From Fuerstiella sp. (GTDB lineage: Bacteria > Planctomycetota > Planctomycetia > Planctomycetales > Planctomycetaceae): a DNA stretch of 64,000 bases. Within the stretch, counting starts at the first letter, position 1. Each line of letters starts with the position of its first letter. The position numbers were made by a program, and so were the translations under genes. The notes below the pieces were generated by a model, which did no database searches, was not told where the DNA came from, and saw only the letters and a list, made by a program, of their open reading frames with translations. The DNA lies in the NCBI GenBank assembly GCA_022447225.1, contig JAKVAZ010000009.1, positions 186,001-250,000 on the forward strand, in the 5' to 3' direction. Shown here piece by piece: positions 1,529 through 62,146 of this stretch.

Positions 1529-3922
1529 CTATTCTTCCTGCTCTTCTATAAACGACCAGTCAACCAGTTCAATTTCCGGACGCAGCACTTCAACAAACCC
1601 AATACGTTTACTTGTCTGAACGCCTCGACCTCCGCGAGATGCAACCTGATATTTCTGCTGTCCAAACGACACGACCCGTCCACTGGAATTCTTTACCCGC
1701 AAACAATCGCTGGGACGTGCCAGCTGGACAATCCCCAGCACGTGATCCCTGTCATCCACCCTGATCCCGCGCACTCCTTTTCCTGCATTCGTGAGTAAAG
1801 GGATATCGTCAAGTGAAAAATGCACGACTCTGGCAGATGCGCTGGCCATCATGCATGTTTCCGCATCCGTAATCAGTTGACAGTCGACAACTTCGTCTCG
1901 CTGGCGCAGTCGACAGAATTTCCGTCCGGCTCTGGTGGACGGTGTACGAAAGCCGTGCAACGGAATACTCAGAACCTGTCCCTGCCTCGTTGCCACCAGC
2001 AGCAGCGGCCCCCATTCCTCTGAGTCATCTTCGACGGCCTCTACAAATCGGGAGTCTGTCGTCAAAGCCGCAATGATTGACGATCCATCGTTCAGTTTCA
2101 CATGTTTTGCTACCGGTTCCCCGTAACCCGATGACACCGGAATCTGGTCGATTGGCAGCGTAAATGCGACACCGTCCGAACTGAACATCACAACGTTATC
2201 CAGCGTGCTGCCCGGCACAACCGCCAGTACCGAATCCCCTTCACGCACTCGTGTCCGTTCAATACTGGCCAACTGGTTGACTCGCTTAATCCAGCCTTCT
2301 CGCGTAACAACCACGTTCGTATTCTCACGCACGATGTATGCCTGAGGGTCGAACCGGGTGATCTCATCTGAAGATCCAAAATTACTTTTGCGACGATCTC
2401 CAAACTGACTGGCCACGTCCTGAAGTTCTGTTTCAATCAGTTTCCACATCCGCTGTGAAGACTTAAGCAGCCGTTCGATTCGACGCGCTTCGGTACGTTT
2501 CTGCTGAAGTTCCTCCAAAATCAGATCAATTTCCAGCTGAGAGATCTTGTACAGGGCCAGTTCCAGAATGGCATCCGTCTGAACCGCATCCAGCGGAAAT
2601 CTCTGCACCAGCTTTTCAGCAGCGTCCTTTTTGCCCCTGCTGGCCCGAATCATCTTCAAGACGGCGTCCAGGGCATCGAAGATGATCTCGAAACCTTCCA
2701 GTATATGAATGCGACGTCGCAGCTGTTCGAGCTGATACTCCAGACGCCGGCGAACAGTGACCATCCGGAAATCAAGAAAATGCTGTAATAAGTCTTTGAG
2801 ACTCAGGACGCGGGGAATGGTGGCCCCGTGGGCATCAGGAACAAGTGCGGTTGCGTTGTAACTGAAGTTCTGTTCGAGCGCCGTATGACGATACAGATAG
2901 GCCATCACGGCTTCCGGATCGGCTCGTGATTTGAGTTCCAGCACAATCCGCAGACCATTCTCTTCGTTGGTTTCATCGTTCGCTTCAAGCAGCTGAGGAA
3001 TCCTGCGTGACTGAATAAGTTCCCCGATTTCCGACAGTAATCCGCCACTGGTGACTCCGAAGGGCATTGAATAAATCACAAGGCGGTCAGACAGCTGGCG
3101 ACGGCCCTGTTTATCGAATCGCCATTCGCCGCGCAGCCTGATTGATCCACGGCCGGTTTCATAGGCCTTTCGAAGCTCGGCTCGCTCGGTGATGATACGT
3201 CCGCCAAGCGGGAAATCGGGCCCCTTAATGTACTTCATTAACCGGGCTACCGTGGCATTCGGATGATTGATCAGGTGCACGCAGGCCTTCGTAACTTCGT
3301 GCAGATTGTGAGGCGGCATGCTGGTAGCCATCCCAACAGCAATACCCTGTGTTCCGTTCACAAGTAACGCCGGAAACCGAGCCGGCAGCACCGACGGTTC
3401 TTCTGTGGCCGCGTCATAGGTCGGACGCATATCAACCGTGTTAAAACGCAACTCGTTCATCAGTTGCTCGGACAAAGCAGACAACTTTGCCTCCGTATAA
3501 CGGTCGGCAGCCTGCCTCAGACCGACAACGGAACCAAAATTTCCCTGGCCCGACACAAGCGGGTACCTCAGGGTGAAGTCCTGCCCCATTCTCACCAGAG
3601 CGTCGTACACCGCATCACCACTGTGAGGATGATACGAACCGGTGGTGTCCCCGCAGATCTTGGCACACTTACGAGTTTTCCCGTTGGCAAGCAGGCGCAG
3701 CCCGTGGTACATCACGTACAAAATCCGTCGCTGAACCGGTTTCATACCATCTCGAACATCCGGCAGCGCACGCGATGTAATTACGGACAGGGCATAGTTG
3801 AGATACCGACGGCGAGTCTCTCCGCTGATCGGAACGAACTGCACGTCGCCCACATCCGACAAATCGTTGGCGAACAGTCCTGATTCGCCGATCTGCTTGC
3901 TCGATGACTTCCTGCGAGCCAA
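1529..3922 (-). CDS. DNA topoisomerase type IIA subunit A (GyrA/ParC family)
   Basis: This is the breakage-reunion subunit of a type IIA topoisomerase, which passes DNA through a transient double-strand break. The 797-residue length matches ParC more than GyrA. The winged-helix/tower domain starts near residue 40 (ALPDVRDGMKPVQRRILY), the active-site tyrosine is about Tyr142 in RYTE, and a coiled-coil region follows. The C-terminal beta-propeller has only a partial GyrA box (SRGGRG near residue 760), which again favours ParC-like activity. The TTG start at 3922 sits seven bases behind a perfect AAGGAG. No partner ATPase subunit is visible in the window. The motif at 98-107 reads HPHSGDAVYD rather than the usual HPHGDSAVYD. 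I leave the symbol blank because GyrA and ParC cannot be told apart safely. Confidence 0.95.
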   Translation of the reverse strand: MARRKSSSKQIGESGLFANDLSDVGDVQFVPISGETRRRYLNYALSVITSRALPDVRDGMKPVQRRILYVMYHGLRLLANGKTRKCAKICGDTTGSYHPHSGDAVYDALVRMGQDFTLRYPLVSGQGNFGSVVGLRQAADRYTEAKLSALSEQLMNELRFNTVDMRPTYDAATEEPSVLPARFPALLVNGTQGIAVGMATSMPPHNLHEVTKACVHLINHPNATVARLMKYIKGPDFPLGGRIITERAELRKAYETGRGSIRLRGEWRFDKQGRRQLSDRLVIYSMPFGVTSGGLLSEIGELIQSRRIPQLLEANDETNEENGLRIVLELKSRADPEAVMAYLYRHTALEQNFSYNATALVPDAHGATIPRVLSLKDLLQHFLDFRMVTVRRRLEYQLEQLRRRIHILEGFEIIFDALDAVLKMIRASRGKKDAAEKLVQRFPLDAVQTDAILELALYKISQLEIDLILEELQQKRTEARRIERLLKSSQRMWKLIETELQDVASQFGDRRKSNFGSSDEITRFDPQAYIVRENTNVVVTREGWIKRVNQLASIERTRVREGDSVLAVVPGSTLDNVVMFSSDGVAFTLPIDQIPVSSGYGEPVAKHVKLNDGSSIIAALTTDSRFVEAVEDDSEEWGPLLLVATRQGQVLSIPLHGFRTPSTRAGRKFCRLRQRDEVVDCQLITDAETCMMASASARVVHFSLDDIPLLTNAGKGVRGIRVDDRDHVLGIVQLARPSDCLRVKNSSGRVVSFGQQKYQVASRGGRGVQTSKRIGFVEVLRPEIELVDWSFIEEQEE

Positions 3923-4161
3923 GTTTCACTCCTTAATCAGATCACCTGATACATCACTCCAAACGCCTGAAACAGTGCCTGGCGACAATCAAATTTTATA
4001 GAATAATCAGCCACTGCAAAACCATTCGTGATTGCAAACAGCATGAGACAACACACGAATTGAATTGCGGCTTGATCAAACCTGCCACAGGGGTCGTCAG
4101 AATCCACTTCGGGATGTTCCGTGACAGGTTCTGCCCTGCAGAAACCACTGAGTTCTCTCAA

Positions 4162-6087
4162 TCAGTTGTCCAGCCCCCACTCCCCGTCCCAGCGCACGAA
4201 GCCCTCAATCGCTTCGTACTCCGCCAGTCCCAGGGCGTCGTAATCTTCAGCTGTCCGGGCATTACGGGATTCAGCCCGCTGCCAGAATTCCCGCTTGTCA
4301 AATCCGGGAAACAACGCACGGTCTTTTTGAGACTCGTGCTTAAAAATAGCCTGACGTTTGCGCTCGACTTCCCTGGGACTCAGAGGGACGGCCATTTCTA
4401 TCTGATGTATTGCCCATTCCTGCCATGCCCCGCGATACAACCATACGTCACTCGTTGAATACCAGTCGTCGTCACGACATTTATCACAGGCCAGAATAAT
4501 GGCTTTCAGACAGGTGCGGTGAGTACCGTGAGGATCCGACAGGTCACCGGCAGCATAGATCTGGTGCGGTCGAATTCTGCGAAGAAGTTCCGTGATGATA
4601 TTAACGTCAGCCTCCGTCAGCGGCTTTTTGCGTACCCGACCGGTTTCGTAAAACGGCAAATCCAGAAAATGCAGGCTGTCATTTGACAGGCCGCACATCC
4701 GCGCAGCTGAGCGGGCTTCGCCGCGGCGAATGATCGTCTTGAGATTTTGAATCTCGGGAATATCCACCTGGCTGGGTTTTTTTTGGCGAAGAAACAACTC
4801 GACTTGTGATTCCAGGTCAGTCACCTCGGTGGTACTAATGTGGAATTCCGAACACAATTCGGCAGCAAATTCAGCAAATCGAATAGCGTCCTCGTCGAAG
4901 ACAGCGATATTACCCGAAGTCTGGTAGGCGACGTGAACTTCGTGGCCCTGATCCACCAGACGACTAAGCGTCCCTCCCATCGAAATAACGTCGTCGTCCG
5001 GGTGAGGTGAAAAGCAAAGGATTCGTTTGGGAAAGATGTGATCACGATTGCCCGGCCGATCGCCGGGAAGTTTGGCATGATCCGGTTTCCCGCCGGGCCA
5101 CCCAATGAGAGTTCCCTGGAGATGTCGGAAGACATTCAGATTGATTTCATATGCTGACCCGTAAATAGCCAGCAGATCCTGCAGACCTTCTTCGTTGTAG
5201 TCAGAATCGGTGAGCTTGAGAATGGCTTTGCCCATTCGTCGGGACAGCCAGATCACGGCGCGGCGAATCGTTAGCTCATCCCAGTCAACAGCGCCAACAC
5301 GCCAGGGATACTGAACCCGGGTCAGACCATCGGCCGCCGCCTGATCAAGCAGGAACTCTGCATCAGTGTGCCTCTGCAGATAAGTGGCAGGAACCGTCGG
5401 ACTGGGATCGCCTTCAATCGTTCGATGTACGATTTCAGCTTTATTTTCTCCAAATGCCAGAATGAAGATTCTGCGTGCAGACAGAATGGTTCCCACGCCC
5501 ATTGTAATGGCTCTTCGGGGCACATTTTCCGCACCAAAGAAATCGCTGGCGGCGTCTGTACGTGTCACACTGTCCAGCGTGATCAGACGTGTCCGTGAAT
5601 GGTGGTCCGATCCCGGCTCGTTGAATCCGATGTGACCGGTTCGCCCAATTCCCAGAAGCTGCAGGTCGATCCCGCCAGCCTCAACAATTTTCCGCTCGTA
5701 GTCGCGGCAATATCGGGAGATGTCCGCAACAGGTGTCGCGCCATCCGGTATGTGGACATTCGCATCCGGAATATCAATGTGGTCGAACAAATGTTCGTTC
5801 ATGAAGCGAACGTAGCTCTGCAGCTCCTCAGGCTGCATAGGATAATATTCATCCAGGTTGAACGTGATCACATTCGCAAAGGACAGTCCCTCTTCGCGAT
5901 GCATGCGGACAAGTTCAGCGTACACCCCCGTGGGAGTGGAACCGGTGGCAAGTCCGAGAACACACGTACGGTCCTCAGCAGCACGCTCAAGGATCAGCTC
6001 CCTGATCACTTCTGCAACATGCACCGAAATCAGCGACGCTCTGGAAAAAATTTCAGAGGAAATCCGTTCACCGGAAATCGCATTCAT
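4162..6087 (-). CDS. glucosamine-6-phosphate deaminase-like / PIG-L deacetylase fusion
   Basis: Two enzymes are joined in one 641-residue chain. Residues 1-265 form a NagB/6-phosphogluconolactonase fold, with the phosphate loop GSTPTG at 49-54, Asp79 in NLDEYY, and His152 and Glu157 in GHIGFNEPGS. Residues 350-641 form a PIG-L/LmbE zinc deacetylase, with HPDDD at 362-366 and the second metal motif DPHGTH at 518-523. Known NagB converts glucosamine-6-phosphate to fructose-6-phosphate and ammonia. PIG-L enzymes remove N-acetyl groups from amino sugars. The fusion therefore suggests sequential deacetylation and deamination of an amino-sugar substrate, probably in the cytoplasm because no signal peptide is seen. 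The residue matching E. coli Asp141 is Thr150. The same arrangement exists in other planctomycete and Bacteroidetes proteins as far as I recall. Confidence 0.93.
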   Translation of the reverse strand: MNAISGERISSEIFSRASLISVHVAEVIRELILERAAEDRTCVLGLATGSTPTGVYAELVRMHREEGLSFANVITFNLDEYYPMQPEELQSYVRFMNEHLFDHIDIPDANVHIPDGATPVADISRYCRDYERKIVEAGGIDLQLLGIGRTGHIGFNEPGSDHHSRTRLITLDSVTRTDAASDFFGAENVPRRAITMGVGTILSARRIFILAFGENKAEIVHRTIEGDPSPTVPATYLQRHTDAEFLLDQAAADGLTRVQYPWRVGAVDWDELTIRRAVIWLSRRMGKAILKLTDSDYNEEGLQDLLAIYGSAYEINLNVFRHLQGTLIGWPGGKPDHAKLPGDRPGNRDHIFPKRILCFSPHPDDDVISMGGTLSRLVDQGHEVHVAYQTSGNIAVFDEDAIRFAEFAAELCSEFHISTTEVTDLESQVELFLRQKKPSQVDIPEIQNLKTIIRRGEARSAARMCGLSNDSLHFLDLPFYETGRVRKKPLTEADVNIITELLRRIRPHQIYAAGDLSDPHGTHRTCLKAIILACDKCRDDDWYSTSDVWLYRGAWQEWAIHQIEMAVPLSPREVERKRQAIFKHESQKDRALFPGFDKREFWQRAESRNARTAEDYDALGLAEYEAIEGFVRWDGEWGLDN

Positions 6088-6324
6088 GACCTGATTACCC
6101 GAAAATCATTACAAAAGTTACCAGCCACAGATCGTAATGAATCGGTTCTTTACCAGCCAGGACGACCACTTCGTTTGTTATCGGAAGTTCAATGAATCTG
6201 CAGAAGCCATCTGTGTTTCGGGTCCCGTTGCTCCGGTCACTCTAAACATTGCTTGTGGCATGCCCGGCAGAACACTAATTTTCACTATATCATTCACCGC
6301 CGAAATCGAGCGGAAAGGGTCATA

Positions 6325-6738
6325 ATGGCAGGCAAAGCTACAGTTTTTGACTACGAAACGATCGGAGACATTCTCATTGTCACTCCGAAACGCGACGTCA
6401 CGTCTTTTCGTGACCACGAACTTCGCGATGCCTATAATGAAGCGTACCGGCAACTCATGAGCGGCTCGCTGCGAAACATCATCTTTGATCTGTCTCATCT
6501 GGATCACTTCGGATCCACCTTCGTTGGAATGATGTTGCGACTTGCAAAAAGATCGGGTGACAACGGAGGTTCCACTGTGCTGTGCCACATGAGTGACAAC
6601 GTTCGCCATATCCTCAAACAACTCATGCTGCTTGAAAATCCAAAAACGGGTTTTTTGTGGAGACAAATGCCGACACGTGCAAACGCGGTTGAATGGATTG
6701 AATCGACGCAGGAATCCGACGAGGAACCTAATGTCTGA
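6325..6738 (+). CDS. STAS-domain protein (anti-sigma factor antagonist-like)
   Basis: The 137-residue product is a single STAS domain of the SpoIIAA/RsbV type. It shows the beta-strand IGDILIVTPKRDVTSF, then LRNIIFDLSHLDHFGSTFVGMML, where the phosphorylatable Ser/Thr position follows the DxxxxDS-like turn (HFGSTF). A final helix is predicted near MPTRANAVEWI. Such proteins bind anti-sigma kinases and regulate partner release. No kinase or phosphatase partner lies nearby, so its pathway is unknown. The ATG at 6325 has an AAAGGG four bases upstream, which argues against the upstream GTG/ATG options that would add an unstructured 24-residue leader. It is divergent from the NagB/PIG-L gene. Confidence 0.85.
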   Translation: MAGKATVFDYETIGDILIVTPKRDVTSFRDHELRDAYNEAYRQLMSGSLRNIIFDLSHLDHFGSTFVGMMLRLAKRSGDNGGSTVLCHMSDNVRHILKQLMLLENPKTGFLWRQMPTRANAVEWIESTQESDEEPNV

Positions 6739-6845
6739 TGGCGAGACCATCGTTGGCTCAGACAGCGGATCTGTCGCAGGTATGGACCGAAAGCAGCAGT
6801 CTGAAGCACTGACCGGTCGAACACAGAGACAGCCCCGGTCAGGAT

Positions 6846-7805
6846 TTACTTCTCAACCACCCATATGTTGCGATACATGACCTGATTGCCGTGTCCCTGA
6901 AGGTAGAGACTGCCGGGGCCCTCCTCTTCCGGATATTTACCAGGTGTCCCTGTCTTCAGCTCAAGGTCATCATGAATCAGAATTCCATTGTGACGAATTG
7001 TGACTCGCGCGTTTTCGACCTTCACACCGTTATCCCAGCGGGCAGCATTAAAGTCGATATCGTAAGTCTGCCAGGTAAGTGGAGGAAAGCAGGCATTCAC
7101 CTTGGGTTTTGCGATCGAATAAACACCACCACATTCGTTGTTCTCGCCTTCCAACCCAAAAGAATCCAGCACCTGCAGTTCGTAGCGTCCCTGCATATAA
7201 ACACCACTATTGCCCCGCGACTGACCACGATCGTACGGCTGGTACGGAATGCGGAATTCCAGGTGCAGGCGGTGATCGCCAAACTTTTGTTTTGATTCGC
7301 ACTCAGCCAGCAACAGATCCTCCAGCATGATCGTGCCATTGACGAAATTTCCGGCAGAGGATCCATCGAACAACACGATGGCGCCCTCCAGCGGCTGCTG
7401 TCCAAGTGACCGACTCATACGCTCAACCCGTTTCAGTTCACCCTGCGGACTGTCGTTCACGAAAATTTTTGCAGCACCGTCATGAATCAGAACGTATCCG
7501 GCATCAGACGAAAACTTCGTCACACCGCCTTCTGCTGCACCTTCGGCAAACACACGACCGGACCCTATGTATCCGTCTCCTGGCAGACCACCAGGATAAA
7601 GAACGGATTTGAACTGATTATCGCCCTGGGCGATCACCTGCATCCCGTGCTTCACGCCGTCCAGTTCACCGGAATACTCCCCCTGAATGTGATAGTCCGG
7701 AGTGACCCTGTCCGGGTCAAGAATGATACGATTACTGTCTTCGGCAACCGCCGCAGATGACAACAGTGCGAGCACAACAAACGTGAATGTGAGGATTTGT
7801 TTCAT
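6846..7805 (-). CDS. secreted DUF1080 (3-keto-disaccharide hydrolase-like) protein
   Basis: The product is about 319 residues with an N-terminal signal peptide (MKQILTFTFVVLALLSSAAVA). The second half is a DUF1080 jelly-roll domain of the laminin-G/concanavalin type. Recognisable blocks are SRGNSGVYMQGRYELQVLDS, WQTYDIDFNAARWD and the terminal GPGSLYLQGHGNQVMYRNIW. Family members are abundant in planctomycetes. Some have been linked to cleavage of 3-keto-glycosides, but substrates are mostly unknown. The N-terminal 150 residues form a separate beta-rich domain of unknown role that includes an internal PGGLPGDGYIGSG motif. The ATG at 7805 is preferred over 7895 because it places the signal peptide at the N-terminus. 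Confidence 0.88.
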   Translation of the reverse strand: MKQILTFTFVVLALLSSAAVAEDSNRIILDPDRVTPDYHIQGEYSGELDGVKHGMQVIAQGDNQFKSVLYPGGLPGDGYIGSGRVFAEGAAEGGVTKFSSDAGYVLIHDGAAKIFVNDSPQGELKRVERMSRSLGQQPLEGAIVLFDGSSAGNFVNGTIMLEDLLLAECESKQKFGDHRLHLEFRIPYQPYDRGQSRGNSGVYMQGRYELQVLDSFGLEGENNECGGVYSIAKPKVNACFPPLTWQTYDIDFNAARWDNGVKVENARVTIRHNGILIHDDLELKTGTPGKYPEEEGPGSLYLQGHGNQVMYRNIWVVEK

Positions 7806-7963: not shown

Positions 7964-9277
7964 TCAGACAGCCGGCGGCTCACTTTGCCCGAACGCCTGT
8001 TGCTGCTGACGAAGCTGTTCGTTGGCGCACTGATCACGTGGAATGGAACATAATTCGCAGTTTGACACGCCATCGTTGCCAGGAATTGATGACAGACCTC
8101 CACAGCTGCCACGTATCTGTCGATTGCTGATCAACACACCAATCCCCATCCCACCCACCGCAACGCAAAACAGTACACCGGCGGCCACAAATACTACCCA
8201 CAAATCCGATGCATTCTCTTCGTCTGCCGAAAGGACTGAATCTGTGTTAGTCGTGGCTAAGATGCCGGTTCCCTGCTGAATGACGCTGCCGTGGGATCCG
8301 ACTGTCTGGAACAATACGGAATAGCCCTCTTTGTTGGCCAGCGCAATCCCTCGCTGAACTCCAAGCACCATCATGGCGGTTGCCAGTGCGTCAGCCGTCA
8401 TACAGGAATCGTGAATCACAGACACCGACGCCGGAGGATCCACCACAGGACAACCGGTCATCGGATTAATCGTATGCGAATATCTGGTGCCGTTCACATC
8501 GAAGAAATTTCGATAATCGCCGGAGGTTGCAATAGAGGTCATCGTCACCGGAACGATTCGCGTCGGACTTACGTTTCTGCTGAATCCCGAGCCGGGAGAT
8601 TCCACACCAATCCGCCACGCTTCTCCCGACGCCTTAACCGTTCCTGCCCGGGTTTCCCCTCCAATGTCTACAATGAAAGAGGGTCGGCCGGATCGCGACA
8701 GCATTTCGGCGATCGCGTCAACCGCGTATCCCTTGGCAATGGCTGAAAGGTTCAGCTGGACATCGGTCCTGAGTTTTCGCAAAGCAGCAGGCTGCAAACG
8801 TACTTCTATATGCTGCATGCCAACGGTCCGCAGCGCGTCATCGATCTCAGCCTGGTCGGGCACACCGGAACGGTCCGGTGTGCCGAATCCCCACAAGTCA
8901 ATCAACGGTGACACCGTCGGGTCAAATGCCCCTCCGGTCAGTTCGTGAATCCGCTTTGCTTCGTAAACGACCGAAGCAAATTCAGATGAAACCGGAAACC
9001 AGTCGATTGATTGGAAACGGTTAAATTCGGAAATTTCGGACTCCGAATCCCATGTCGACATTTGCAGGTTGATCTCGCTGAGCTTCGCCGTGATTTCTGC
9101 CAGTACACCTGACCTGGTCTCGCCGTCCTGCGGCGTATCGATGGTGACGAAAAATCCTGTCCCCATTGTTTCGCCGTCTACACGAAGCCGGTCTGCATAC
9201 AACGAACTTCGTCCCGTCAGAATAATGACGAAAACGATCATTTGAGAATAAAGCGCAGTGAGTCTCAGAAAACGCAT
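7964..9277 (-). CDS. ApbE FAD:protein FMN transferase fused to an NqrM-like domain
   Basis: The first 340 residues are an ApbE flavin transferase: GETMGTGF at 35-42, GGAFDPTVSPLIDLWGFG at 115-132, LSAIAKGYAVDAI at 177-189, IDIGGE-like VDIGGE at 203-208, and YSHTINPMTG at 266-275. ApbE uses FAD to attach FMN covalently to Ser/Thr of target proteins such as NqrB and NqrC. After a linker comes one membrane helix (about 359-383), then NRQIRGSCGGLSSI, CELC at 407-410 and Cys417. This is the layout of NqrM (DUF539), the small membrane protein needed to mature Na+-NQR. ApbE and NqrM are normally separate neighbouring genes. An N-terminal hydrophobic segment at 8-22 suggests the ApbE part lies on the outer face of the membrane. 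No nqr genes are in the window. ATG 9277 was chosen so the signal peptide is terminal; an upstream option exists at 9325. Confidence 0.93.
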   Translation of the reverse strand: MRFLRLTALYSQMIVFVIILTGRSSLYADRLRVDGETMGTGFFVTIDTPQDGETRSGVLAEITAKLSEINLQMSTWDSESEISEFNRFQSIDWFPVSSEFASVVYEAKRIHELTGGAFDPTVSPLIDLWGFGTPDRSGVPDQAEIDDALRTVGMQHIEVRLQPAALRKLRTDVQLNLSAIAKGYAVDAIAEMLSRSGRPSFIVDIGGETRAGTVKASGEAWRIGVESPGSGFSRNVSPTRIVPVTMTSIATSGDYRNFFDVNGTRYSHTINPMTGCPVVDPPASVSVIHDSCMTADALATAMMVLGVQRGIALANKEGYSVLFQTVGSHGSVIQQGTGILATTNTDSVLSADEENASDLWVVFVAAGVLFCVAVGGMGIGVLISNRQIRGSCGGLSSIPGNDGVSNCELCSIPRDQCANEQLRQQQQAFGQSEPPAV

Positions 9278-10096: not shown

Positions 10097-11536
10097 TTAC
10101 GACAAAATCTCGTTAATCACATTGCCGTGAACATCGGTAAGACGCCGATCGAGTCCGTTGTAATACCAGGTGAGTTGTTCATGGTCGAAGCCGCACAGGT
10201 GCAGTACCGTCGCGTAATAATCCCATACCGTTGTCGGATTGACCTGTGCGCGGCGTCCGAACTCATCCGTTGCCCCGTAACTCATCCCTCCCCTGACGCC
10301 TGCTCCCATCATCCAGCAGGTGAACCCGTCGGGATTGTGATCGCGTCCAGTCGTGCCGGCCTGGTGCGTCGGCATCCGTCCAAATTCGGTTGCCCACAGA
10401 ACCAGCGTATCGTCCAGCAGGCCGGATTCCTTCAAATCGGTCAGTAGGGCCGCAGTGGGCTGATCAAATATTGGACAGTGCCGTTCGTAGTCGGCCCTGA
10501 GTGTCTTGTGAGCATCCCAGTTCAGCAGCCCGTCAACACCGGAAGCCCGGGAGGAGCAATAAAGATTCACGCACCGAACCCCACGTTCCAGGAGCCTTCG
10601 GGCCAGCAGACAGTTCCGGGCATAAGCGGCTTTGAGTGGATTTTCATCCGCGGTGCCGTACGTACTGTGAACCAATTCGGATTCACGGGTCAGGTCCGAG
10701 ACTTCCGGAGTGGAAACTTGCATTCTTGCCGCCAGTTCGTAGGCCGAAACACGAGCCTGCAGATCACTCTCCGCCGGATTAGCTGCAGCGAAGTCCTGGT
10801 TCAAACGAGCAAGCAGACGGCGTGACGTGGCTTCCTCAGCTTCCGACACTCCTTGCGGGCGGGCCAGGTTCCGAATCGGTTTTTGGTCACTCATCATCGT
10901 CGCCTGGTGCCGGGCCGGAAGAAAACCGTTTGACCAGTTCGCCTTACCGTTTGGTGGTTCACCCCGAATATCGGAAATCGCCACGTATGTCGGCAGATTT
11001 TCGTTTTCGCTGCCCAGTCCATAACTGAGCCAGGCACCGGCACTGGGAAAACCTTCAGTCGGATGACCGGTATTCATGAAAACACATCCCGGCCCGTGTG
11101 TATTGGTCTCACTGTGCATGGCATGCAGAAAAGCAATGTCATCCACATGCCGTGACATATGTGGCAGCATGGATGTGATGTGCTTGCCGCATTCACCTGA
11201 CCGTAAGAACGGCCACGGACTTTGCATCAGGTTGCCGTTTTTACCCTGAAAAGAGAAAAATTCCTCTTCGCCCGGCAGTGGCTGACCGTGATATTTTTCC
11301 AGCGACGGTTTGTACTCCCACAAATCCATAGGCGACGCCGCACCGGGGCAGAAAATTTGCAGGACCCGTTTCGCTTTGGCTGCGTGCTGCGTTCTGCGTG
11401 GCTGCGACTGATCCGTCGTTTGGTCGCCTCTCGCGTCGCGAGCCAGCAACTGGATCAGACCAACTCCGCCCAGTCCGGTGGAAACGTTGCCCAGTAAACA
11501 ACGCCGTGTGTGATCAGTGAGGCTGTAGTGGTTCAT
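10097..11536 (-). CDS. DUF1501 protein with Tat-type leader
   Basis: The 479-residue product is a typical DUF1501 protein, a family related to the alkaline phosphatase/sulfatase fold and highly expanded in planctomycetes. The N-terminus has a twin-arginine leader (TRRCLLGNVSTGLGGVGLIQLLA). Family blocks are visible at CPGAASPMDLWEYKP, HSETNTHGPG, FPSAGAWLSYGLGSENENLP, WATEFGRMPTHQ and GRDHNPDGFT. Residues of the last two blocks resemble metal-binding Asp/His sites. The biochemical role of the family is not established. It is encoded 129 bases downstream of a PSCyt1/DUF1549/DUF1553 protein on the same strand, the usual pairing. A GAGGAA lies about 11 bases before the ATG. Confidence 0.95.
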   Translation of the reverse strand: MNHYSLTDHTRRCLLGNVSTGLGGVGLIQLLARDARGDQTTDQSQPRRTQHAAKAKRVLQIFCPGAASPMDLWEYKPSLEKYHGQPLPGEEEFFSFQGKNGNLMQSPWPFLRSGECGKHITSMLPHMSRHVDDIAFLHAMHSETNTHGPGCVFMNTGHPTEGFPSAGAWLSYGLGSENENLPTYVAISDIRGEPPNGKANWSNGFLPARHQATMMSDQKPIRNLARPQGVSEAEEATSRRLLARLNQDFAAANPAESDLQARVSAYELAARMQVSTPEVSDLTRESELVHSTYGTADENPLKAAYARNCLLARRLLERGVRCVNLYCSSRASGVDGLLNWDAHKTLRADYERHCPIFDQPTAALLTDLKESGLLDDTLVLWATEFGRMPTHQAGTTGRDHNPDGFTCWMMGAGVRGGMSYGATDEFGRRAQVNPTTVWDYYATVLHLCGFDHEQLTWYYNGLDRRLTDVHGNVINEILS

Positions 11537-11665
11537 AACGTTTAAGATTCCTCACCTGGGGTCGCTGATGTCGTGAGACGTCTGACTCAACAACTTCCAC
11601 AGATTCGGCCGCGCAAAATATTGTTTTTTCTTCAGCCATTGTCCGGGAGCCCCGGTCCAGTACGG

Positions 11666-14600
11666 TTACTGCACATAGATCAATTCACTGGTATTCAGCA
11701 ACACGCGACACAATGCGGGGAATCCATATTCATCTGCCAGTTCCAGACATGCTCTGATTTCATCATCGGTCGGTTGTCTTGCGTAACAAAGTTCATACGC
11801 ACGACGAACCTGTGCTCGATGATCGTCACCGGCATCTCGATGCAGACGATCCGCCAGAGCACGAGCCATATCGAGCGTGAAGCTGTGGTTAAGCACCGTC
11901 AAAGCCTGAAGCGGTGTTGTGGTCGTGACTCGTGTGGGAGCAGAAAACGTGCAGTCAGGCTGGTCGAAGTCGGTCATCAGGTCGACAACTGACGCGCGTG
12001 CGTTCTGATGGTAAACAGCTCTTCGATACGTGTCCGGCCCATGCTTATCGAGCGGAACGTACGTGGAAACATTGTCCCTCAGATACCGATACAGCCGAAA
12101 CCCAGGACCACCGTCGGGAACATTGCAGTCTACAGCATGGACCGATTGCGAATTTTCTTTAGTTCCCCGACCACCCTGAGGCGTGTGACTGCACTCAATT
12201 TTTCCGGCAACAAAAAGGATCGTGTCACGCATTTCTTCGGCGGAAAGTCGCCGAGGGGGAAAACGCCACAGCAGTCGAGAGTCACCATCGATCCGTGTCG
12301 GACCGGCACGGGACAGCGATGACTGCCTCCAGGTTCGTGACATCATGATCATACGATGCAGTTTTTTAAGTCGCCAGTTGTTCTTCTTAAGTTCAAGAGC
12401 CAGAAAATCCAGCAGCTCCGGATGAGTGGGGCTTCCTCCCATAAATCCAAAGTCACTGGGAGTATTCACGATTCCCGTGCCAAAGTGGTAATGCCACACT
12501 CGATTGGCCAGGACTCGCAGTGTGAGCGGGTTTTCTGGATGCACAATCCAGTCAGCCAGTGCCTGTCGGCGTTCGGCTTCAGGGGCGTCAGCATTCAGAC
12601 GGTAGGCAAATCCTTGTGACTCACTCAGTGCAGAACTGCCCTGAGAAGACTGGTCCTGAGATTGACTCTGACGAACGACGGCAGAGTTCACCGGTTGCTG
12701 GCCAGGTGTCCTGTTTCCCAGGACGCCCAGGCTCGCAGGAACAGCCACCTCACCTGGCTGCTGCGGGCTGCCCCCCCGAAATACATGAAACGGTCCCTGT
12801 GCGTCCGCCGAGTTACGATTTCCGATCCACACTGAAGGCAATGCCGGTATTTTTGAAATCTGCTGATTCACCGCGGAGAGTTCTTTCTCCAGTCGCAACA
12901 GTTCGGCCTGCTCCCCAGTGCCGGTTTCCAGTTGAAGCAGTCGATGATCCAGATGGTCCTGTCCCTGAACCGGTCGACGGTCCCTTCCGCTGGCAACTTC
13001 ACGCCAGTTCTTTCCGTCCTCTGAGACCTCGATCCGGTACTCAGCGACAAAAACAAACAGTGTCTGGTCAGGAGTCAGTTCACCTTTGGCACTGGAAAAC
13101 TGCACGCGATCAATCAGCGTCGGCTGAGCCAGCTCGATGGTCAGGTCACTGCCGGCTGATATGAAGCGAGCGCCTGTCTTTCCGTCAATCGTGTGGTGCG
13201 CCCCGTAGGCGTTCGGAAAGTCCTCAATTTGACGAGCCCTGCCGGTGGCCTTTCCACCGCTGGCAGCCAGTGCCACGTTTCGAGGCTCATGTGTTTGATT
13301 TTGCATCCCCGGACTCGACCAGACTTCAAATTCGTCGATACGAAAAGCGGTCGTATTCCCCGGGGCAAGGTCCTGAGATTCACAAACCAGTCGCACAAAT
13401 TTAGCCTGCACGGGTTCAAAACGATCCTCCGTTCCGGTGCGGTCAACCGGAGGACGAATCCAGCCTGTGGCATGGTCGGCCAGATGTTCTTTTGCTCGTA
13501 TCAGGATGGCTGATCTCAGATCTGACAGTTCCTGCTGCAGCTTTGACCTGGCAGAGTTGAGCGGATTGAGTGCCGCCGCACGTACGGCACGCGCTTCCGA
13601 AGTCGCCAGTTCAGCAGATCCGTGGCGGACACCGGAAAACGTAGCGTACAGTCCGTAATAGTCCTGCTGAGTTATCGGATCGAACTTGTGATCATGGCAT
13701 CGTGCACAACCGAGAGTCATTCCCAAAAAAGCTTCACCCGTCGCACGAATGATTTCATCAAGCGTGTTCGCACGAATCTGAGCCGCCTGTACGGGATCCT
13801 GATTGCCAACACGGTCGTATGGACCCGCCACAAGAAAAGCAGATCCTATCGCAACCGAAGGATCATTCTGGCCGAAAACATCACCCGCGATATGCTCACG
13901 AATGAATCGGTCGAACGGCCTGTCCTCGTTGAGAGACCGGATCACGTAATCGCGAAACGGCCACAGATTGTTGATGATTATATTTGTTTCGTAGCCGACA
14001 CTTTCTCCGAAACGCACAACATCCAGCCAGTGACGTCCCCACCGTTCACCATAATGCGGAGACTGCAGCAGTCGATCGATGAGCCGCGCGTAAGCCGATG
14101 GATCGGGGTCGCTGACAAATGCAGCGACTTCTTCCGGTGTCGGTGGCAGTCCGGTCAGGTCATAAGTTGCACGACGAATCAACGTCCGGCGGTCGGCGGG
14201 AGGACTCAGTGACAGATTGTGTTCCGCCAGTTTCACTGCCACGAAATCGTCAATCATTTGGCTGGCGGAATCATCCGACACCGTTGCAGAAGACACCTTC
14301 TTTTTAGAAGTGCCTATGTAAGGGTTCAGTGGCTGCAAGGACCACCAGTCTGCATCTGCTTTTGACGTATCCGTGATAATGACATCATCGGGCCAGTCTG
14401 CTCCTGTTTCGATCCAGTGTCGCAAAGCAGCAATCTGTTCCCCGGAAAGTGGATCGGCCCCCTTTGGCATGGCAGGACGTTCACCGTCGACTCCGCTCAG
14501 CAGTTCGATCAGATGACTGGCGTTCGGATCACCGGAAATCACATGTTCGTACGCGACAAGATCATCGATCGTTGCCAGTGAAATGTCGCCTTTGGTATTA

Positions 14601-14794
14601 CCAGGCGAATGACAACGTACGCAGTGTTTCTGAAAAATCGGAGCAATCTGAGTTCGAAAGTCCGGGGGGAGATCATCGGCCCGCAGGCCTGCCTGAAGAG
14701 ATAACGCACCGACGATCACACAAAAGGTCCGCCTCAGTCCTGTTGCCGGCCAGGGCATCGACCGTTTGGCTGCTGCGCAAGGAGTAGACCTCAT
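11666..14794 (-). CDS. PSCyt1/DUF1549/DUF1553 large secreted protein
   Basis: This 1042-residue planctomycete-type protein starts with a possible signal peptide (hydrophobic near 22-38). A PSCyt1 domain follows, with a c-type haem motif CVRCH near residue 58, then DUF1549 (about 180-400). Within DUF1549, TYDLTGLPPTPEEVAAF and a second CxxCH (CARCHDHKFDP) are clear. Residues 440-620 form a discoidin-like beta-sandwich insert. The DUF1553 domain at the C-terminus carries NRVWHYHFGTGIVNTPSDFG and FPPRRLSAEEMRD. Haem attachment implies a periplasmic redox role. The family is often found beside DUF1501 proteins in polysaccharide-related loci, but no reaction is proven. It directly precedes the DUF1501 gene, and the two probably form an operon. 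An internal ATG at 14758 is an alternative start. Confidence 0.94.
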   Translation of the reverse strand: MRSTPCAAAKRSMPWPATGLRRTFCVIVGALSLQAGLRADDLPPDFRTQIAPIFQKHCVRCHSPGNTKGDISLATIDDLVAYEHVISGDPNASHLIELLSGVDGERPAMPKGADPLSGEQIAALRHWIETGADWPDDVIITDTSKADADWWSLQPLNPYIGTSKKKVSSATVSDDSASQMIDDFVAVKLAEHNLSLSPPADRRTLIRRATYDLTGLPPTPEEVAAFVSDPDPSAYARLIDRLLQSPHYGERWGRHWLDVVRFGESVGYETNIIINNLWPFRDYVIRSLNEDRPFDRFIREHIAGDVFGQNDPSVAIGSAFLVAGPYDRVGNQDPVQAAQIRANTLDEIIRATGEAFLGMTLGCARCHDHKFDPITQQDYYGLYATFSGVRHGSAELATSEARAVRAAALNPLNSARSKLQQELSDLRSAILIRAKEHLADHATGWIRPPVDRTGTEDRFEPVQAKFVRLVCESQDLAPGNTTAFRIDEFEVWSSPGMQNQTHEPRNVALAASGGKATGRARQIEDFPNAYGAHHTIDGKTGARFISAGSDLTIELAQPTLIDRVQFSSAKGELTPDQTLFVFVAEYRIEVSEDGKNWREVASGRDRRPVQGQDHLDHRLLQLETGTGEQAELLRLEKELSAVNQQISKIPALPSVWIGNRNSADAQGPFHVFRGGSPQQPGEVAVPASLGVLGNRTPGQQPVNSAVVRQSQSQDQSSQGSSALSESQGFAYRLNADAPEAERRQALADWIVHPENPLTLRVLANRVWHYHFGTGIVNTPSDFGFMGGSPTHPELLDFLALELKKNNWRLKKLHRMIMMSRTWRQSSLSRAGPTRIDGDSRLLWRFPPRRLSAEEMRDTILFVAGKIECSHTPQGGRGTKENSQSVHAVDCNVPDGGPGFRLYRYLRDNVSTYVPLDKHGPDTYRRAVYHQNARASVVDLMTDFDQPDCTFSAPTRVTTTTPLQALTVLNHSFTLDMARALADRLHRDAGDDHRAQVRRAYELCYARQPTDDEIRACLELADEYGFPALCRVLLNTSELIYVQ

Positions 14795-56296: not shown

Positions 56297-56599
56297 CTAG
56301 CTCGCCGACGGGCACTGACCGTCGGTTTCCGCCATTGACGTCTTCTGCTCGGTAATCACCGGCCACTGACTGGCCATTTCTGCATTCAGAGCGGTGTAAT
56401 CGGTCCATTGTTCCGGCACGTTGTCCTCGTGGAAAATTGCCTCGACCGGGCATTCCGGTACACAGGCTTCACAATCAATACATTCATCGGGATGAATGAC
56501 CAGAATCGACTCACCTTCGTAAAAGCACTCAACCGGACAAACGACAACACAGTCGGTGTATTTGCAGTTAAAACAAGGTTCTGCAACGACATGGGTCAT
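56297..56599 (-). CDS. seven-iron ferredoxin (FdxA-type)
   Basis: The 100-residue product has nine Cys at 9, 12, 17, 21, 25, 40, 43, 46 and 50 within [14 protein letters not shown] and [12 protein letters not shown]. This is the FdxA pattern of one 3Fe-4S and one 4Fe-4S cluster, an electron carrier. AAAGGG eight bases before the ATG supports the start. The tail from about residue 60 is extended. No partner oxidoreductase is adjacent. Confidence 0.92.
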
Positions 56600-57187
56600 T
56601 TTTACACCCTTTCGATCATATCAAATTCAGTCTTCGCCACGATTACAGCAATAGCCCGCAAAAACCTGACTGACGAGCCTGCACCTCAAGCCAGATCTTT
56701 TAAATTAGCCATTCCGGGTCAAGTTGTGGTGCAGGACCTTGTGTTACCCGGAATTTGCGAGTTGTACGAAATTTATTTCGACTTTTTCCAATCGAGACAC
56801 CTTACGAATGACATCTCTCACCATATTGAGACACAATCTCCAAAATTTTCCGGGTAGAAATTGACATTCCTGGCCCGGCGGCCTTTTTAAGCCACTAATG
56901 ACTATTATTTTTCGGTTCATTGATCCGGCAGCAATACCAAAACGCTCAGCCCCTGTTCGCCCGTGGCTTCCAGGCAACATGCAAGACACAGTAATTGTCT
57001 GCAATTCACTGAATTTTGACCCTTCGAACACTTAGACGCGACGTAATACCTAAGGGAGAGAGGCATTCCGATCAGCACCAACTGTGAAATTTTCACGTAG
57101 TCATGCAGATCGAAACCGTAAATGTAATACATCGCCGGATCGGGCGAACCATCAGACCCGACTCTGCATTGCCCCGGTTTATTCATT
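56600..57187. other. divergent gap
   Basis: The gap lies between the ferredoxin and sigma-factor starts. A TTGACA at 56861-56866 has no good -10 partner. No coding frame is supported. Confidence 0.4.
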
Positions 57188-57748
57188 ATGCCGTTGTCTG
57201 AAACTGACCGACGACTCATCAAAGATCTGCTCACGCGGAGTGACGCAGCCTGGGATATGTTTGTTGACCGTTACGCCGGACTGGTTATGCAGGTCATTAG
57301 ACATACCGCACATGCGCACAGTCTCAGGCTCACTCAGGACGATGAAGATGATTTGTGTGCCGATGTTTTTGCCGCCCTGGTTGATCGTCGTATGGCAACA
57401 CTAAGGAGTTTTCGTGGCCGATCATCACTGGCAACATGGCTGGCAGTAGTTGTCAGGCGGATCGTCCTCCGCAAGCTGACACAACGTCGGTATGCGAGTG
57501 CCCTCGGACATGTGAGTGTTCACAGTTCCGCCGTGCGACAGGCGACAGACTCAGTCGAGTCAGATCTCGCAAATCGTGATCAGGTAGAGACACTGATGAA
57601 ACGACTTTCGCCGGGAACTCAGGACGTAGTGAAGCTATTCTACAGGGAAGGTCTTTCCTACGGTGAAATCTCCCGAAAACTCGGCATCGCGGTCAATACA
57701 ATCGGACCTATGCTGTCAAGAATTCGCCGTACTCTGGCTTCACGTTGA
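57188..57748 (+). CDS. ECF-type RNA polymerase sigma factor
   Basis: The 186-residue product has a region 2 (AWDMFVDRYAGLVMQVI, then DLCADVFAALVDR) and a region 4 helix-turn-helix (GLSYGEISRKLGIAVNTIGPMLSRIRRTL), typical of ECF sigma factors. It would direct RNA polymerase to a specific regulon. No anti-sigma gene is adjacent, which is common among planctomycete ECFs. No strong Shine-Dalgarno sequence is seen. Confidence 0.92.
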   Translation: MPLSETDRRLIKDLLTRSDAAWDMFVDRYAGLVMQVIRHTAHAHSLRLTQDDEDDLCADVFAALVDRRMATLRSFRGRSSLATWLAVVVRRIVLRKLTQRRYASALGHVSVHSSAVRQATDSVESDLANRDQVETLMKRLSPGTQDVVKLFYREGLSYGEISRKLGIAVNTIGPMLSRIRRTLASR

Positions 57749-58208
57749 CATTGCAGTTTCGACACTGCAGGCAGCGCAGCTCTCCCGATTTGACACAAAC
57801 ACTCTCCGCCCTGAAATAACGCAACAGTTGCCGCCAAATTGACAATCTTTCAGCGGACGCTCATATTTCGCGCCTGTGCCTGCTATTTCATCTGCAACAT
57901 CCTCACTGAAACAAAGATTCCAGGAATCTGAGTACATTCATTGCGGTTCATGCGTCATCATGAACAAAGTCAAAGGTAAGGCATCAGCAGACTCTTAATC
58001 CGGAACGTGGATTCCGTGTGCCGCGTTATCCACGGCGCACCGCAGCCAGGAATGTGACTCAGAAGGTCCGACATCAGGTAAGACTGATTGTCCTCCTGCT
58101 CAGCCCCTTTACCTTCGACGCCACAGCACTAAACTTCCCGTCAATTCAGTGAACCCAACAGTCTGAATTGAGTGGCACAATTTTACATTGAACCAACAGG
58201 AACTGAAC
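57749..58208. other. gap with a hairpin
   Basis: No gene is supported. GTGTGCCG (58016-58023) pairs with CGGCGCAC (58033-58040), with one G-T pair and a 9-base loop, about 170 bases before the lipoprotein start. No T tract follows. Confidence 0.45.
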
Positions 58209-58805
58209 ATGTCACGCAAATGGATGACCCTCACCGTTGGCAGCCTGCTGACAGTTGCCGGCTGCAATTCCTCGGAAGAATACAAAGACTATTCCAACGC
58301 TCCCCTCAGTGAGAACACCAGTCACGACCACGACCACGACCACGCAGCGGGAATGCACGGCGGGCAGATCATAGAATTTGATGCTGCTCATGCGCATCAT
58401 GCAGAACTGGTGTTCGATGAACAGACTCGCGACATCACGCTTTATTTCTATGGCCCAGAAATTGGTAAGGCGCAGACAGCCGAAGGCCTGGTATTTGAAG
58501 TCGACAAGGAAGATGGTGACGAAATGCACCTCGATGCAACTGCAATGCCCCTGGAAGGCGAAACCGAAGACACGGCTTCACGGTTCGTCGTCGCAGGATC
58601 TGATCTGCCTGCGGAGCTCACTTCGATCGCTGACCTGCACTGTCACTTTCATGTGAATCTGAGTGGTCAGGAATTCACAGGTCACCTTGTCCATGATGAT
58701 CATCATGATGAACACAGTGAACACGATGAACACGATGAACACGATGAACACGATGAACACGATGAACACGATGAACACAGTGAACACAGTGAAGAAGACC
58801 AGTAA
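58209..58805 (+). CDS. histidine-rich metal-binding lipoprotein
   Basis: The 198-residue product has a lipoprotein signal ending LTVAGC with Cys19. A cluster SHDHDHDHAAGMHGG follows, then a beta-rich middle (HAELVFDEQTRDITLYFYG). The C-terminal tail of HDE and HSE triplets is coded by a 9-base tandem repeat. The His/Asp/Glu-rich tails suggest zinc, copper or nickel binding outside the cytoplasm. ATG 58209 has AGGAA nearby upstream and places the signal properly. Confidence 0.85.
   Translation: MSRKWMTLTVGSLLTVAGCNSSEEYKDYSNAPLSENTSHDHDHDHAAGMHGGQIIEFDAAHAHHAELVFDEQTRDITLYFYGPEIGKAQTAEGLVFEVDKEDGDEMHLDATAMPLEGETEDTASRFVVAGSDLPAELTSIADLHCHFHVNLSGQEFTGHLVHDDHHDEHSEHDEHDEHDEHDEHDEHDEHSEHSEEDQ
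58710..58790 (+). repeat. 9-bp tandem repeat coding HDE/HSE triplets
   Basis: Nine units of nine bases: one GAACACAGT, six GAACACGAT, and two GAACACAGT. The repeats encode the acidic-histidine tail of the lipoprotein. Length changes would keep the frame, so copy number may vary between strains. Confidence 0.9.
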
Positions 58806-59046
58806 ACCATCACTGACAAACGTTGATGGGCACGAGGGTCACGAACAGCACTCTACAAGAGAGAATTCCGGGTAAACTGTAGTGAAGGAGTGGTCTGTCA
58901 GCTTCGAACGACGATCAATCGGAACGTTCACCTCGGAAACCCTGGATGACCTGAATTGATTCAATCGGCGATCGTGAATTCATAGCGCAAATGTCGGTTG
59001 TGCGCTGACCATTGCTGAAGTTCCTGTCTCATTGAAGGAAAACAGA

Positions 59047-59913
59047 TTGGCCGCCAGCAACAGGAGAATCAACGACAGCAGACAACAAACCTGGCGACGA
59101 ATTCTGCCAGCCTGCGCGTTGCTGGTGGTTGCGGCTGTGTTTTCGTGCGTAATCATCGTATCGACAGAAACATCGGCTGCTGGTCCGCCGGTCATCCGTG
59201 TTACCCGCATCGCCGAATATCCACATGATCAGCAGGCATTTTGTCAGGGGCTGACTGTTTACAATGACGAATTACTGGAAGGTACGGGACGATATCAGCA
59301 TTCGGCACTCCGCCGCGTCAATATTGGGACGGGCCAAGTCAGGAAACAGGTACGACTTGCCGACAATGTTTTCGGAGAAGGTGTGACCCTTTGGAAGGAC
59401 CGGGTTATCCAGCTCACATGGGAAAATGGATACCTGATCATCTACGACGCCGACACACTGACCCCTCTGAATAAGGTGAGTTACGGTCAGATCGATTCAA
59501 CCCTTAGGCAGGGCTGGGGCGTCACTCATGATGGAAAGAATCTGATTGTCAGCGACGGCAGTGCTTTACTGAGATTCATCGATCCAGCAACATGGAAGAC
59601 CGTCCGCCGTATCAAAGTCCGATCCGGCAGACGGTCCATTCAAAATCTGAACGAACTGGAATACGTCAACGGTGAGATTCTGGCCAATGTTTGGTATTCA
59701 TCACGGATTGCCCGTATCGATCCTGAATCGGGAGCAGTCAAAGGATGGCTCGAACTTAAGCAACTTTTCCCGCGTACGGTCCGGCGTAATCGGGAAGCGG
59801 TCTTGAACGGCATCGCCTGGGATGCCGTAAATCAACGCCTGTTTGTGACAGGAAAGTATTGGCCGTCTCTGTTTGAAATCACCTGGGACGGCCTTCCCGG
59901 TCAAAATCGCTGA
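59047..59913 (+). CDS. glutamine cyclotransferase-like protein
   Basis: The 288-residue product has one N-terminal hydrophobic segment (signal anchor) and then a beta-propeller of glutaminyl-peptide cyclotransferase type. Markers are AFCQGLTVYNDELLEGTGRYQHSALR and ILANVWYSSRIARIDPESG. The enzyme converts N-terminal Gln to pyroglutamate on exported proteins. TTG 59047 follows AAGGA by seven bases. Confidence 0.88.
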   Translation: MAASNRRINDSRQQTWRRILPACALLVVAAVFSCVIIVSTETSAAGPPVIRVTRIAEYPHDQQAFCQGLTVYNDELLEGTGRYQHSALRRVNIGTGQVRKQVRLADNVFGEGVTLWKDRVIQLTWENGYLIIYDADTLTPLNKVSYGQIDSTLRQGWGVTHDGKNLIVSDGSALLRFIDPATWKTVRRIKVRSGRRSIQNLNELEYVNGEILANVWYSSRIARIDPESGAVKGWLELKQLFPRTVRRNREAVLNGIAWDAVNQRLFVTGKYWPSLFEITWDGLPGQNR

Positions 59914-60030
59914 AGCCCCATACCGTCTCCGTTTGTCTCACATCATGAATAATCCAGAAATCACAATTCAGCGGATCCGGATCAGCGGATTGCGGAATGG
60001 TATTCACTCGAATCGTGTATCGGCCCACAC

Positions 60031-61941
60031 ATGACGCAGTCTCATCGGCCACTCCAGTGCGAACAACACTTTGATACACTTCGTCAGTGGCTTGACATGG
60101 AGGGTGAAGCCGAACGGCGGCGACTGGAAGAACGACGTAAAGTACAGTCTTCGAGTGATGCAGAACGTCGAGGGGAAACACTCCTGGATTTGGAAATTCG
60201 GACCCACAGCACGGGGCTTGGTGGCCGATACCTGCTAACGCTTCAGAAACGTCGAAAAACAGAAAAACTCCCCTGGCATCGATTCAAAGTCGGAAGCCCT
60301 GTTCTGCTGTCTCCCGAAAGCGATAATTCCGAATCAGCAATACAGGGTGTGGTCAGTGGTCGAAACGTGGACTCGCTAGACATCGCTGTCGAAAAATGGC
60401 CAACGGGTCAACGGTTTCGACTCGATTTGTCTCCCGACGAGATCACTCGCAAACGTCAGATTGCGGCAATGGAAATCGCCGAAAACGCTGCAGGTCGTCT
60501 CGGCCAGCTGCGCGACATTCTGCTCTACGACCGGGTACCGGTGTTTGAGTCTCCGGTGGCGATGCCTTCTTCGGAGAGTCTCAATGACTCTCAGCAACAG
60601 GCTGTCGAATTCTCGCTGTCAGCTCAGGATCTCGCAATTATCCACGGACCGCCTGGTACAGGTAAAACCACGACCGTAGTCGAATTGATTCGACAAACGG
60701 TAGCCGGCGGTGAACGAGTACTGGCCTGCGCACCCAGCAACACGGCAGTGGACAATCTGCTCGAACGTCTCGTCACTGCCGGAGAACCAGCCGTCCGGCT
60801 TGGTCACCCCGCAAGGGTTCTTGAAGTGGTGCGCGCTCACACACTGGACGCTCTCGTTGAAAAACATGACGCCTGGCCGTTGATTCAGGAAATGCAGCGG
60901 GAAGCAGAACAGCTTAGTCGCAAAGCCAGGCGATTCACGCGAGGACGACCGGCACCAGGTCAAAAGTACCAGCAACGACAGGAAGCCCGGGAACTTCGCA
61001 AACATGCGCGCATGATGGAACGCCAGGCTGTCAATGAAATCATTGCAGGAGCTCGTGTCATCTGCGCAACCGTCAGTTTTGACTTTAGCATTCTGGAAGA
61101 ACATGCATTTGATCTGCTTGTGATTGACGAAGCGTGCCAGAGTGTCGAACCGGGTTGCTGGGTCCCGTTGAAATATGCCGACCGTGTCGTCCTGGCGGGC
61201 GACCACTGTCAGCTGCCGCCCACGATTCTGTCGCAGGAAGCGGCAAGAGAAGGATTCGCGGTCAGTCTGATGCAGAGGCTGGCAGCACACTACGGTGATC
61301 ACATCACTCGACAGCTGACCGTTCAGTACCGCATGCATGAACAAATCATGCGATTCTCGTCAAATACGTTCTACGACGGCAGGTTAACCGCTCATGAAAC
61401 CGTCCGGCACCACACATTGAATGATTTGCCAACCGTCAACATTACCCATGACAGCCCGGTCCTATACATCGATACGGCTGGCGCCGGATGGAACGAACAA
61501 CTGGAGCCTGAGGGACTGAGTAAATTCAATCCCAACGAGGGTCGTCTGGTCCTTGAGCAGATCAGCCAGCTGTGCGAAGCGGGACTCAGCCCGTCTGACA
61601 TCGCGGTCATCGCGCCGTACGCAGCTCAGGTCCGCTGGCTGCGACAGCACTCTGTCTACGATCGTCTGGAAATCGACACGGTCGACGGCTTTCAGGGGCG
61701 CGAGAAGGAAGCCGTCGTGATGTGTACCGTACGGTCCAATTCGAAAGGAGAAGTCGGCTTTCTGTCAGATTCCCGAAGGATGAATGTTGCACTCACCCGT
61801 GCCCGTCGAAAACTGATTGTGATTGGAGACAGCGCGACCCTGGGCGCCGACGAGTTCTTTCGGAACCTGCTGGCATGGTTCGACGAAACCGGAAATTACA
61901 AAACGGTCTGGGAAACGACGACAGACGCAGATCCGGCTTGA
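60031..61941 (+). CDS. superfamily I helicase (IGHMBP2/SMUBP-2-like)
   Basis: The 636-residue product has Walker A GPPGTGKTTT near residue 208, a DEACQS Walker B, QYRMHEQI and VDGFQGREKEAVVM, then RMNVALTRARRKLIVIGD. These are the motifs of IGHMBP2/UPF1-like helicases. It may act on RNA or DNA. No partner is adjacent. Confidence 0.94.
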   Translation: MTQSHRPLQCEQHFDTLRQWLDMEGEAERRRLEERRKVQSSSDAERRGETLLDLEIRTHSTGLGGRYLLTLQKRRKTEKLPWHRFKVGSPVLLSPESDNSESAIQGVVSGRNVDSLDIAVEKWPTGQRFRLDLSPDEITRKRQIAAMEIAENAAGRLGQLRDILLYDRVPVFESPVAMPSSESLNDSQQQAVEFSLSAQDLAIIHGPPGTGKTTTVVELIRQTVAGGERVLACAPSNTAVDNLLERLVTAGEPAVRLGHPARVLEVVRAHTLDALVEKHDAWPLIQEMQREAEQLSRKARRFTRGRPAPGQKYQQRQEARELRKHARMMERQAVNEIIAGARVICATVSFDFSILEEHAFDLLVIDEACQSVEPGCWVPLKYADRVVLAGDHCQLPPTILSQEAAREGFAVSLMQRLAAHYGDHITRQLTVQYRMHEQIMRFSSNTFYDGRLTAHETVRHHTLNDLPTVNITHDSPVLYIDTAGAGWNEQLEPEGLSKFNPNEGRLVLEQISQLCEAGLSPSDIAVIAPYAAQVRWLRQHSVYDRLEIDTVDGFQGREKEAVVMCTVRSNSKGEVGFLSDSRRMNVALTRARRKLIVIGDSATLGADEFFRNLLAWFDETGNYKTVWETTTDADPA

Positions 61942-62146
61942 CGTACGAACTCACGCAAGGGTTGTCATGGGCAACTGATGCGACCTTACTCGGGGCACGC
62001 CGGCCGACAATAAGTGACGTTCCCTGGGTGCCATTAACGTGAGAGACGACCACAACAGTTACCCGGCTGTTAAAATTCTGTTGAGGCTGGTGTGAGCGAC
62101 GGTTTCCCTGAACATCCGTCACGGATTGATCGGTAGTGCAATTCTG

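Follow-up and report, generated by a model that had tools for sequence, protein, structure and literature searches.

An ApbE flavin transferase fused in frame to NqrM in a Fuerstiella genome: a probable single-chain maturation factor of Na+-NQR

The fusion gene and its two domains

The window analysed here (the whole stretch of DNA, 64,000 nucleotides long) carries on its reverse strand a gene in which an ApbE FAD:protein FMN transferase domain is followed, in one frame, by a single membrane helix and an NqrM cysteine block (Table 1). The gene is read from an ATG; an alternative TTG start is possible at 9325. Close by on the same strand, positions 4162–6087 hold another two-enzyme fusion, in which a glucosamine-6-phosphate isomerase (PF01182) runs into a PIG-L deacetylase (PF02585) in one frame, and at 10097–14794 a DUF1501 gene adjoins a PSCyt2 (DUF1549)/PSD1 (DUF1553) gene, as is often seen in planctomycetes.

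Table 1. Features of the fusion gene, in window coordinates
Feature	Residues	Position	Strand	Basis or remark
ApbE–NqrM fusion gene	437 aa	7964..9277	-	ATG start; single uninterrupted frame
N-terminal signal sequence (predicted)	1–29	9191..9277	-	hydrophobic, no lipobox Cys; sequence and comparison with split ApbEs
ApbE FAD:protein FMN transferase domain	38–322	8312..9166	-	Pfam and nearest solved structures
RYSHTINP	265–272	8462..8485	-	H268 aligned to V. cholerae ApbE His257
TADALAT	294–300	8378..8398	-	D296 and T300 at the Mg2+-ligand Asp/Thr positions of ApbE
Linker between ApbE and NqrM parts	324–357	8207..8308	-	fast-evolving; dN/dS 0.60 against the second Fuerstiella gene
Single NqrM transmembrane helix (predicted)	about 360–384	8126..8200	-	AlphaFold helix 346–395; hydrophobic stretch
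NqrM Cys block, S-C392-GG ... C407-ELC410 ... C417		8027..8107	-	Pfam NqrM

The initial annotation, made from the sequence alone, had read the gene as an ApbE domain, one membrane helix and a C-terminal block with NRQIRGSCGGL, CELC and a further Cys, and had likened that block to NqrM (DUF539). This layout is borne out by Pfam, by AlphaFold2 and by the tail sequence, and when the two profiles that it had named were run on the translation (hmmscan), both matched above their curated cut-offs in one frame: Pfam ApbE over the domain given in Table 1 (E 1.8e-83, 280.5 bits, profile positions 1–265 of 266) and Pfam NqrM over residues 381–427 (E 7.4e-7, 29.3 bits against a cut-off of 22, profile positions 1–40 of 43). 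The AlphaFold2 model, built from an alignment of the fusion protein with 34 homologues (mean pLDDT 85.6), has a globular ApbE fold at residues 30–342 and a long single helix, followed by a low-confidence Cys-rich tail.

By sequence (E 5e-61) and by fold alike, the best solved match of the ApbE half is Vibrio cholerae ApbE (6nxi/6nxj), with a TM-score, normalised to the target, of about 0.9 for the predicted model. Residues H268, D296 and T300 do not vary across the homologue alignment and also align to 6nxi; His257 of the V. cholerae protein is the residue altered in the H257G mutant structure 6nxj. D296 and T300 are presumably ligands of Mg2+, as in the Treponema pallidum Ftp structures. The H-x-I-D-P motif reads HTINP, residue 271, usually D, being N both here and in the second Fuerstiella gene described below. 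At its N-terminus the protein is hydrophobic and has no lipobox, and a signal-peptidase site is possible after SLYA (residue 28).

The tail, SNRQIRGSC(392)GGL...NC(407)ELC(410)...DQC(417), has all four cysteines of NqrM. C392 occupies the position of Cys33 of proteobacterial NqrM (the GSCGG cysteine is at position 33 in several of these proteins), and almost every fused relative preserves GSCGG and the cysteine offsets 0, 15, 18 and 25. Around the helix, the mean net charge over 36 fused members is +2.3 on the C-terminal side and −1.1 on the N-terminal side; this asymmetry is consistent with an ApbE domain in the periplasm and a Cys block, with the C-terminus, in the cytoplasm. With ApbE outside and the Cys block inside, a single chain could serve both faces of the Na+-NQR complex.

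The fusion recurs, again as a single frame, in an independent genome of the same genus (G001). Against the G001 gene, dN/dS is 0.13 for the ApbE domain and 0.12 for the helix with the Cys tail; purifying selection is thus similar on the two halves and relaxed on the linker. A frameshift between the domains, named beforehand as an outcome that would overturn the fusion, is excluded, since the second genome has the same single-frame gene with low dN/dS in both halves.

Candidate clients in the genome

A complete nqrABCDEF operon is present in the genome (5.43 Mb in 33 contigs, 97% complete), at 56,335–62,588 of the same contig (C9) and 131 kb from the fusion gene, which lies outside the nqr operon. 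The initial annotation had stated that no nqr genes lie nearby; this is true within the window, and the operon is found beyond it. Its first suggestion, that the target lies elsewhere in the genome, agrees with this complete operon, whose products carry ApbE target motifs and beside which neither apbE nor nqrM was found. For every Nqr subunit, one or more of the NCBIfam equivalog models of that subunit match above cut-off; NqrB has DSFSGPT (SGPT) and NqrC has DALSGAT (SGAT). NqrD Cys28 and Cys111 and NqrE Cys33 and Cys134 match the iron-ligand positions known from Na+-NQR structures to hold the intramembrane Fe–S centre.

Presence and absence across the genome were judged by family searches, in which the fusion is the only NqrM and NqrC the only FMN_bind protein. 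A second ApbE, on contig C2 (positions 5798–6853 of locus L008), has 352 aa, is very divergent and is without NqrM; it could also act on NqrB and NqrC. This gene lies upstream of, and overlaps, a large frame of DoxX-like appearance. On contig C6 (positions 2592–4547 of locus L009), a 652-aa protein combines a membrane domain resembling RnfD/NqrB, which scores under the family cut-off, with a C-terminal TPR array. The plasmid collection that was searched gave no match.

Relatives, membrane anchor and history

Among 59 relatives, NqrM and NqrB are both present in 20 and both absent in 28, with NqrM alone in two and NqrB alone in nine (Fisher p 5.5e-7, shared ancestry ignored). Local searches of the NqrB-only relatives placed NqrM beside apbE in four of them, fused in G011 and split in G040, G049 and G057, and gave a weaker NqrM match in G044. 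Near the complete nqrABCDEF of four relatives, no NqrM was recognisable (G006, L163; G009, L164; G039, L165–L166; G021, L167), and in G009 an ApbE without NqrM lies directly downstream of the operon. In these four, NqrM may therefore be dispensable or replaced, or it may have diverged until unrecognised, and such a diverged form may lie elsewhere in the genome.

Searching 84,980 species genomes for the NqrM tail gave 139 loci, the best 80 of which, a sample biased towards relatives of the query, were compared. Among those of the 80 that have an ApbE, the two are fused in 26 of 57 planctomycete or unnamed loci and in none of 12 from other phyla; the ApbE–NqrM fusion is widespread in Planctomycetota. 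Eleven fused loci in this sample of the best 80 of 139, that of G001 (the same contig as L083) among them, stand at the end of an nqr operon, directly downstream of nqrF, and 12 have no nqr gene in the 4–6 kb upstream, whereas 29 of 30 split pairs are at an nqr operon (p 5e-5 against the fused loci, ancestry ignored). A split pair found otherwise, in G015, is also far from nqr. The split apbE and nqrM genes among the best 80 of 139 commonly overlap by four bases or sit within 20 bases of each other, a spacing that would offer an easy starting point for fusion. Open-frame length alone was never used to call a fusion; one candidate, a 456-aa frame in G082, was rejected, ApbE and NqrM being in different frames there.

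Stand-alone ApbE is typically a lipoprotein (PMC12052999). A lipobox cysteine is present in 42 of 57 split ApbEs and in three of 33 fused ones (p 2.4e-9, with a pattern that was revised after the first misses had been read and was applied alike to both groups); the stricter first pattern points in the same direction, with 36 of 57 split and six of 33 fused (p 5.7e-5). This difference is only partly corrected for shared ancestry: well-supported branches offer two independent pairs, too few for an ancestry-aware test, and these usually agree with it and are seldom opposed to it. Where split ApbEs have no lipobox, an N-terminal helix that stays uncleaved seems in many cases to take its place. The lipobox being mostly absent from fused ApbEs, the NqrM helix probably replaces the lipid anchor, and in the modelled protein the C-terminal helix apparently anchors the ApbE domain.

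Fused and split forms are intermixed on a 48-row tree of ApbE domains, with 11 changes on the best tree and 9–11 in bootstraps, and well-supported branches force at least two changes between the forms. The gene analysed here belongs to a clade of five, all of them fused (100/99). Given the 11 changes on the best tree, the data do not support a single origin, though most deep forks are weakly supported; with these forks unsettled, the number of fusion events is uncertain and gain is not separable from loss.

Proposed role and known systems

Previous work reports that FMN is attached to NqrB and NqrC by ApbE (PMC6209661; PMC12174285), that the intramembrane [2Fe–2S] centre seems to need NqrM (PMC12174285) and that NqrM is predicted to deliver Fe to NqrD/E (PMC6209661). 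We propose, with a probability of about 0.88, that the fusion is one bitopic inner-membrane protein carrying both dedicated maturation factors of Na+-NQR, and that its clients are the products of nqrABCDEF 131 kb away. The signal sequence would export the N-terminal ApbE domain, which would take FMN from FAD and attach it, on the outer face of the inner membrane, to the threonine of the SG(A/P)T motif in NqrB and in NqrC. The NqrM helix would span the membrane and set C392, C407, C410 and C417 on the cytoplasmic side, where the Cys block might help to complete the intramembrane Fe–S centre held by NqrD and NqrE, an iron role that is itself a prediction in the literature. One chain may in this way physically couple the flavinylation and iron-centre steps, and the coupling may bring a benefit beyond shared anchoring and dosage.

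It is improbable, in our estimate, that only the ApbE half matters, with the NqrM-like tail a mere membrane anchor in place of the lipid and the iron centre matured otherwise. The tail probably does act as an anchor, as the usual lack of a lipobox in fused forms implies, and some nqr-bearing relatives are without a recognisable NqrM; yet the four cysteines and GSCGG are retained in nearly all fused members, dN/dS in the helix and Cys tail is no higher than in the ApbE domain, and this genome offers no NqrM besides the fusion. Still less credence goes to the fusion maturing another flavoprotein (an RnfG/NosR-like or other FMN-bind target) instead of Na+-NQR. Its distance from nqr in this genome and the divergent RnfD-like TPR protein on C6 would suit such a target, but the sole FMN_bind protein is NqrC, the C6 protein is under the family cut-off and in relatives the fusion directly follows nqrF.

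As for a sequencing or assembly artefact joining two neighbouring genes, apbE and nqrM adjoin or overlap by four bases in many relatives, so that a single error could join them. That reading, to which we assign next to no probability, is already refuted by the independent fused genomes: the 26 fused loci among 57 from planctomycetes (best 80 of 139 loci) include that of the cultured Thalassoglobus neptunius, and the closest relative is also fused, with purifying selection on both halves.

Returning to the fusion as a maturation factor of Na+-NQR, we lean slightly towards a wider picture in which the planctomycete maturation pair has been fused (or split) repeatedly, the fused form trading the lipid anchor of ApbE for the NqrM helix, being able to move out of the nqr operon in one piece and working as a single transmembrane assembly factor that serves the flavin side from outside and the iron centre from inside. 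Such a natural fusion would fix the stoichiometry of NqrM with the ApbE flavinylation step, and its nearness to it, and supports the view that ApbE and NqrM act on the same NqrB–E core. That fusion recurs, mostly without a lipobox, offers comparative evidence that tethering to the membrane, and not lipid as such, is what ApbE requires, and the fusion could become a one-gene tool for Na+-NQR maturation in a heterologous host.

No description of an ApbE–NqrM fusion was found in the literature searched, and NqrM is unmentioned in the eLife 2021 flavinylation paper and in a 2025 review of ApbE; the fusion may already stand in public domain-architecture tables. The genes apbE and nqrM, and their adjacency in operons, were already known (PMC12174285; PMC6209661). 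Known NqrM (DUF539, PF04400) has, like the fusion, a single membrane-spanning helix and, after it, GSCGG with three further cysteines, and it co-occurs with nqr; it is, however, small and free-standing, and is usually encoded downstream of apbE, whereas here it forms the C-terminal domain of ApbE. The ApbE of the V. cholerae nqr operon (6nxi) shares its fold and active-site residues with the fusion but is a stand-alone, N-terminally lipidated lipoprotein, while the fusion has no lipobox and runs on into NqrM. The trypanosomatid fumarate reductase (PMC12052999) likewise unites an ApbE-type flavin transferase with a functional partner on one polypeptide; in that case the partner is the flavinylated enzyme itself, in the cell interior, whereas the planctomycete ApbE is joined to a second assembly factor, across a bacterial membrane.
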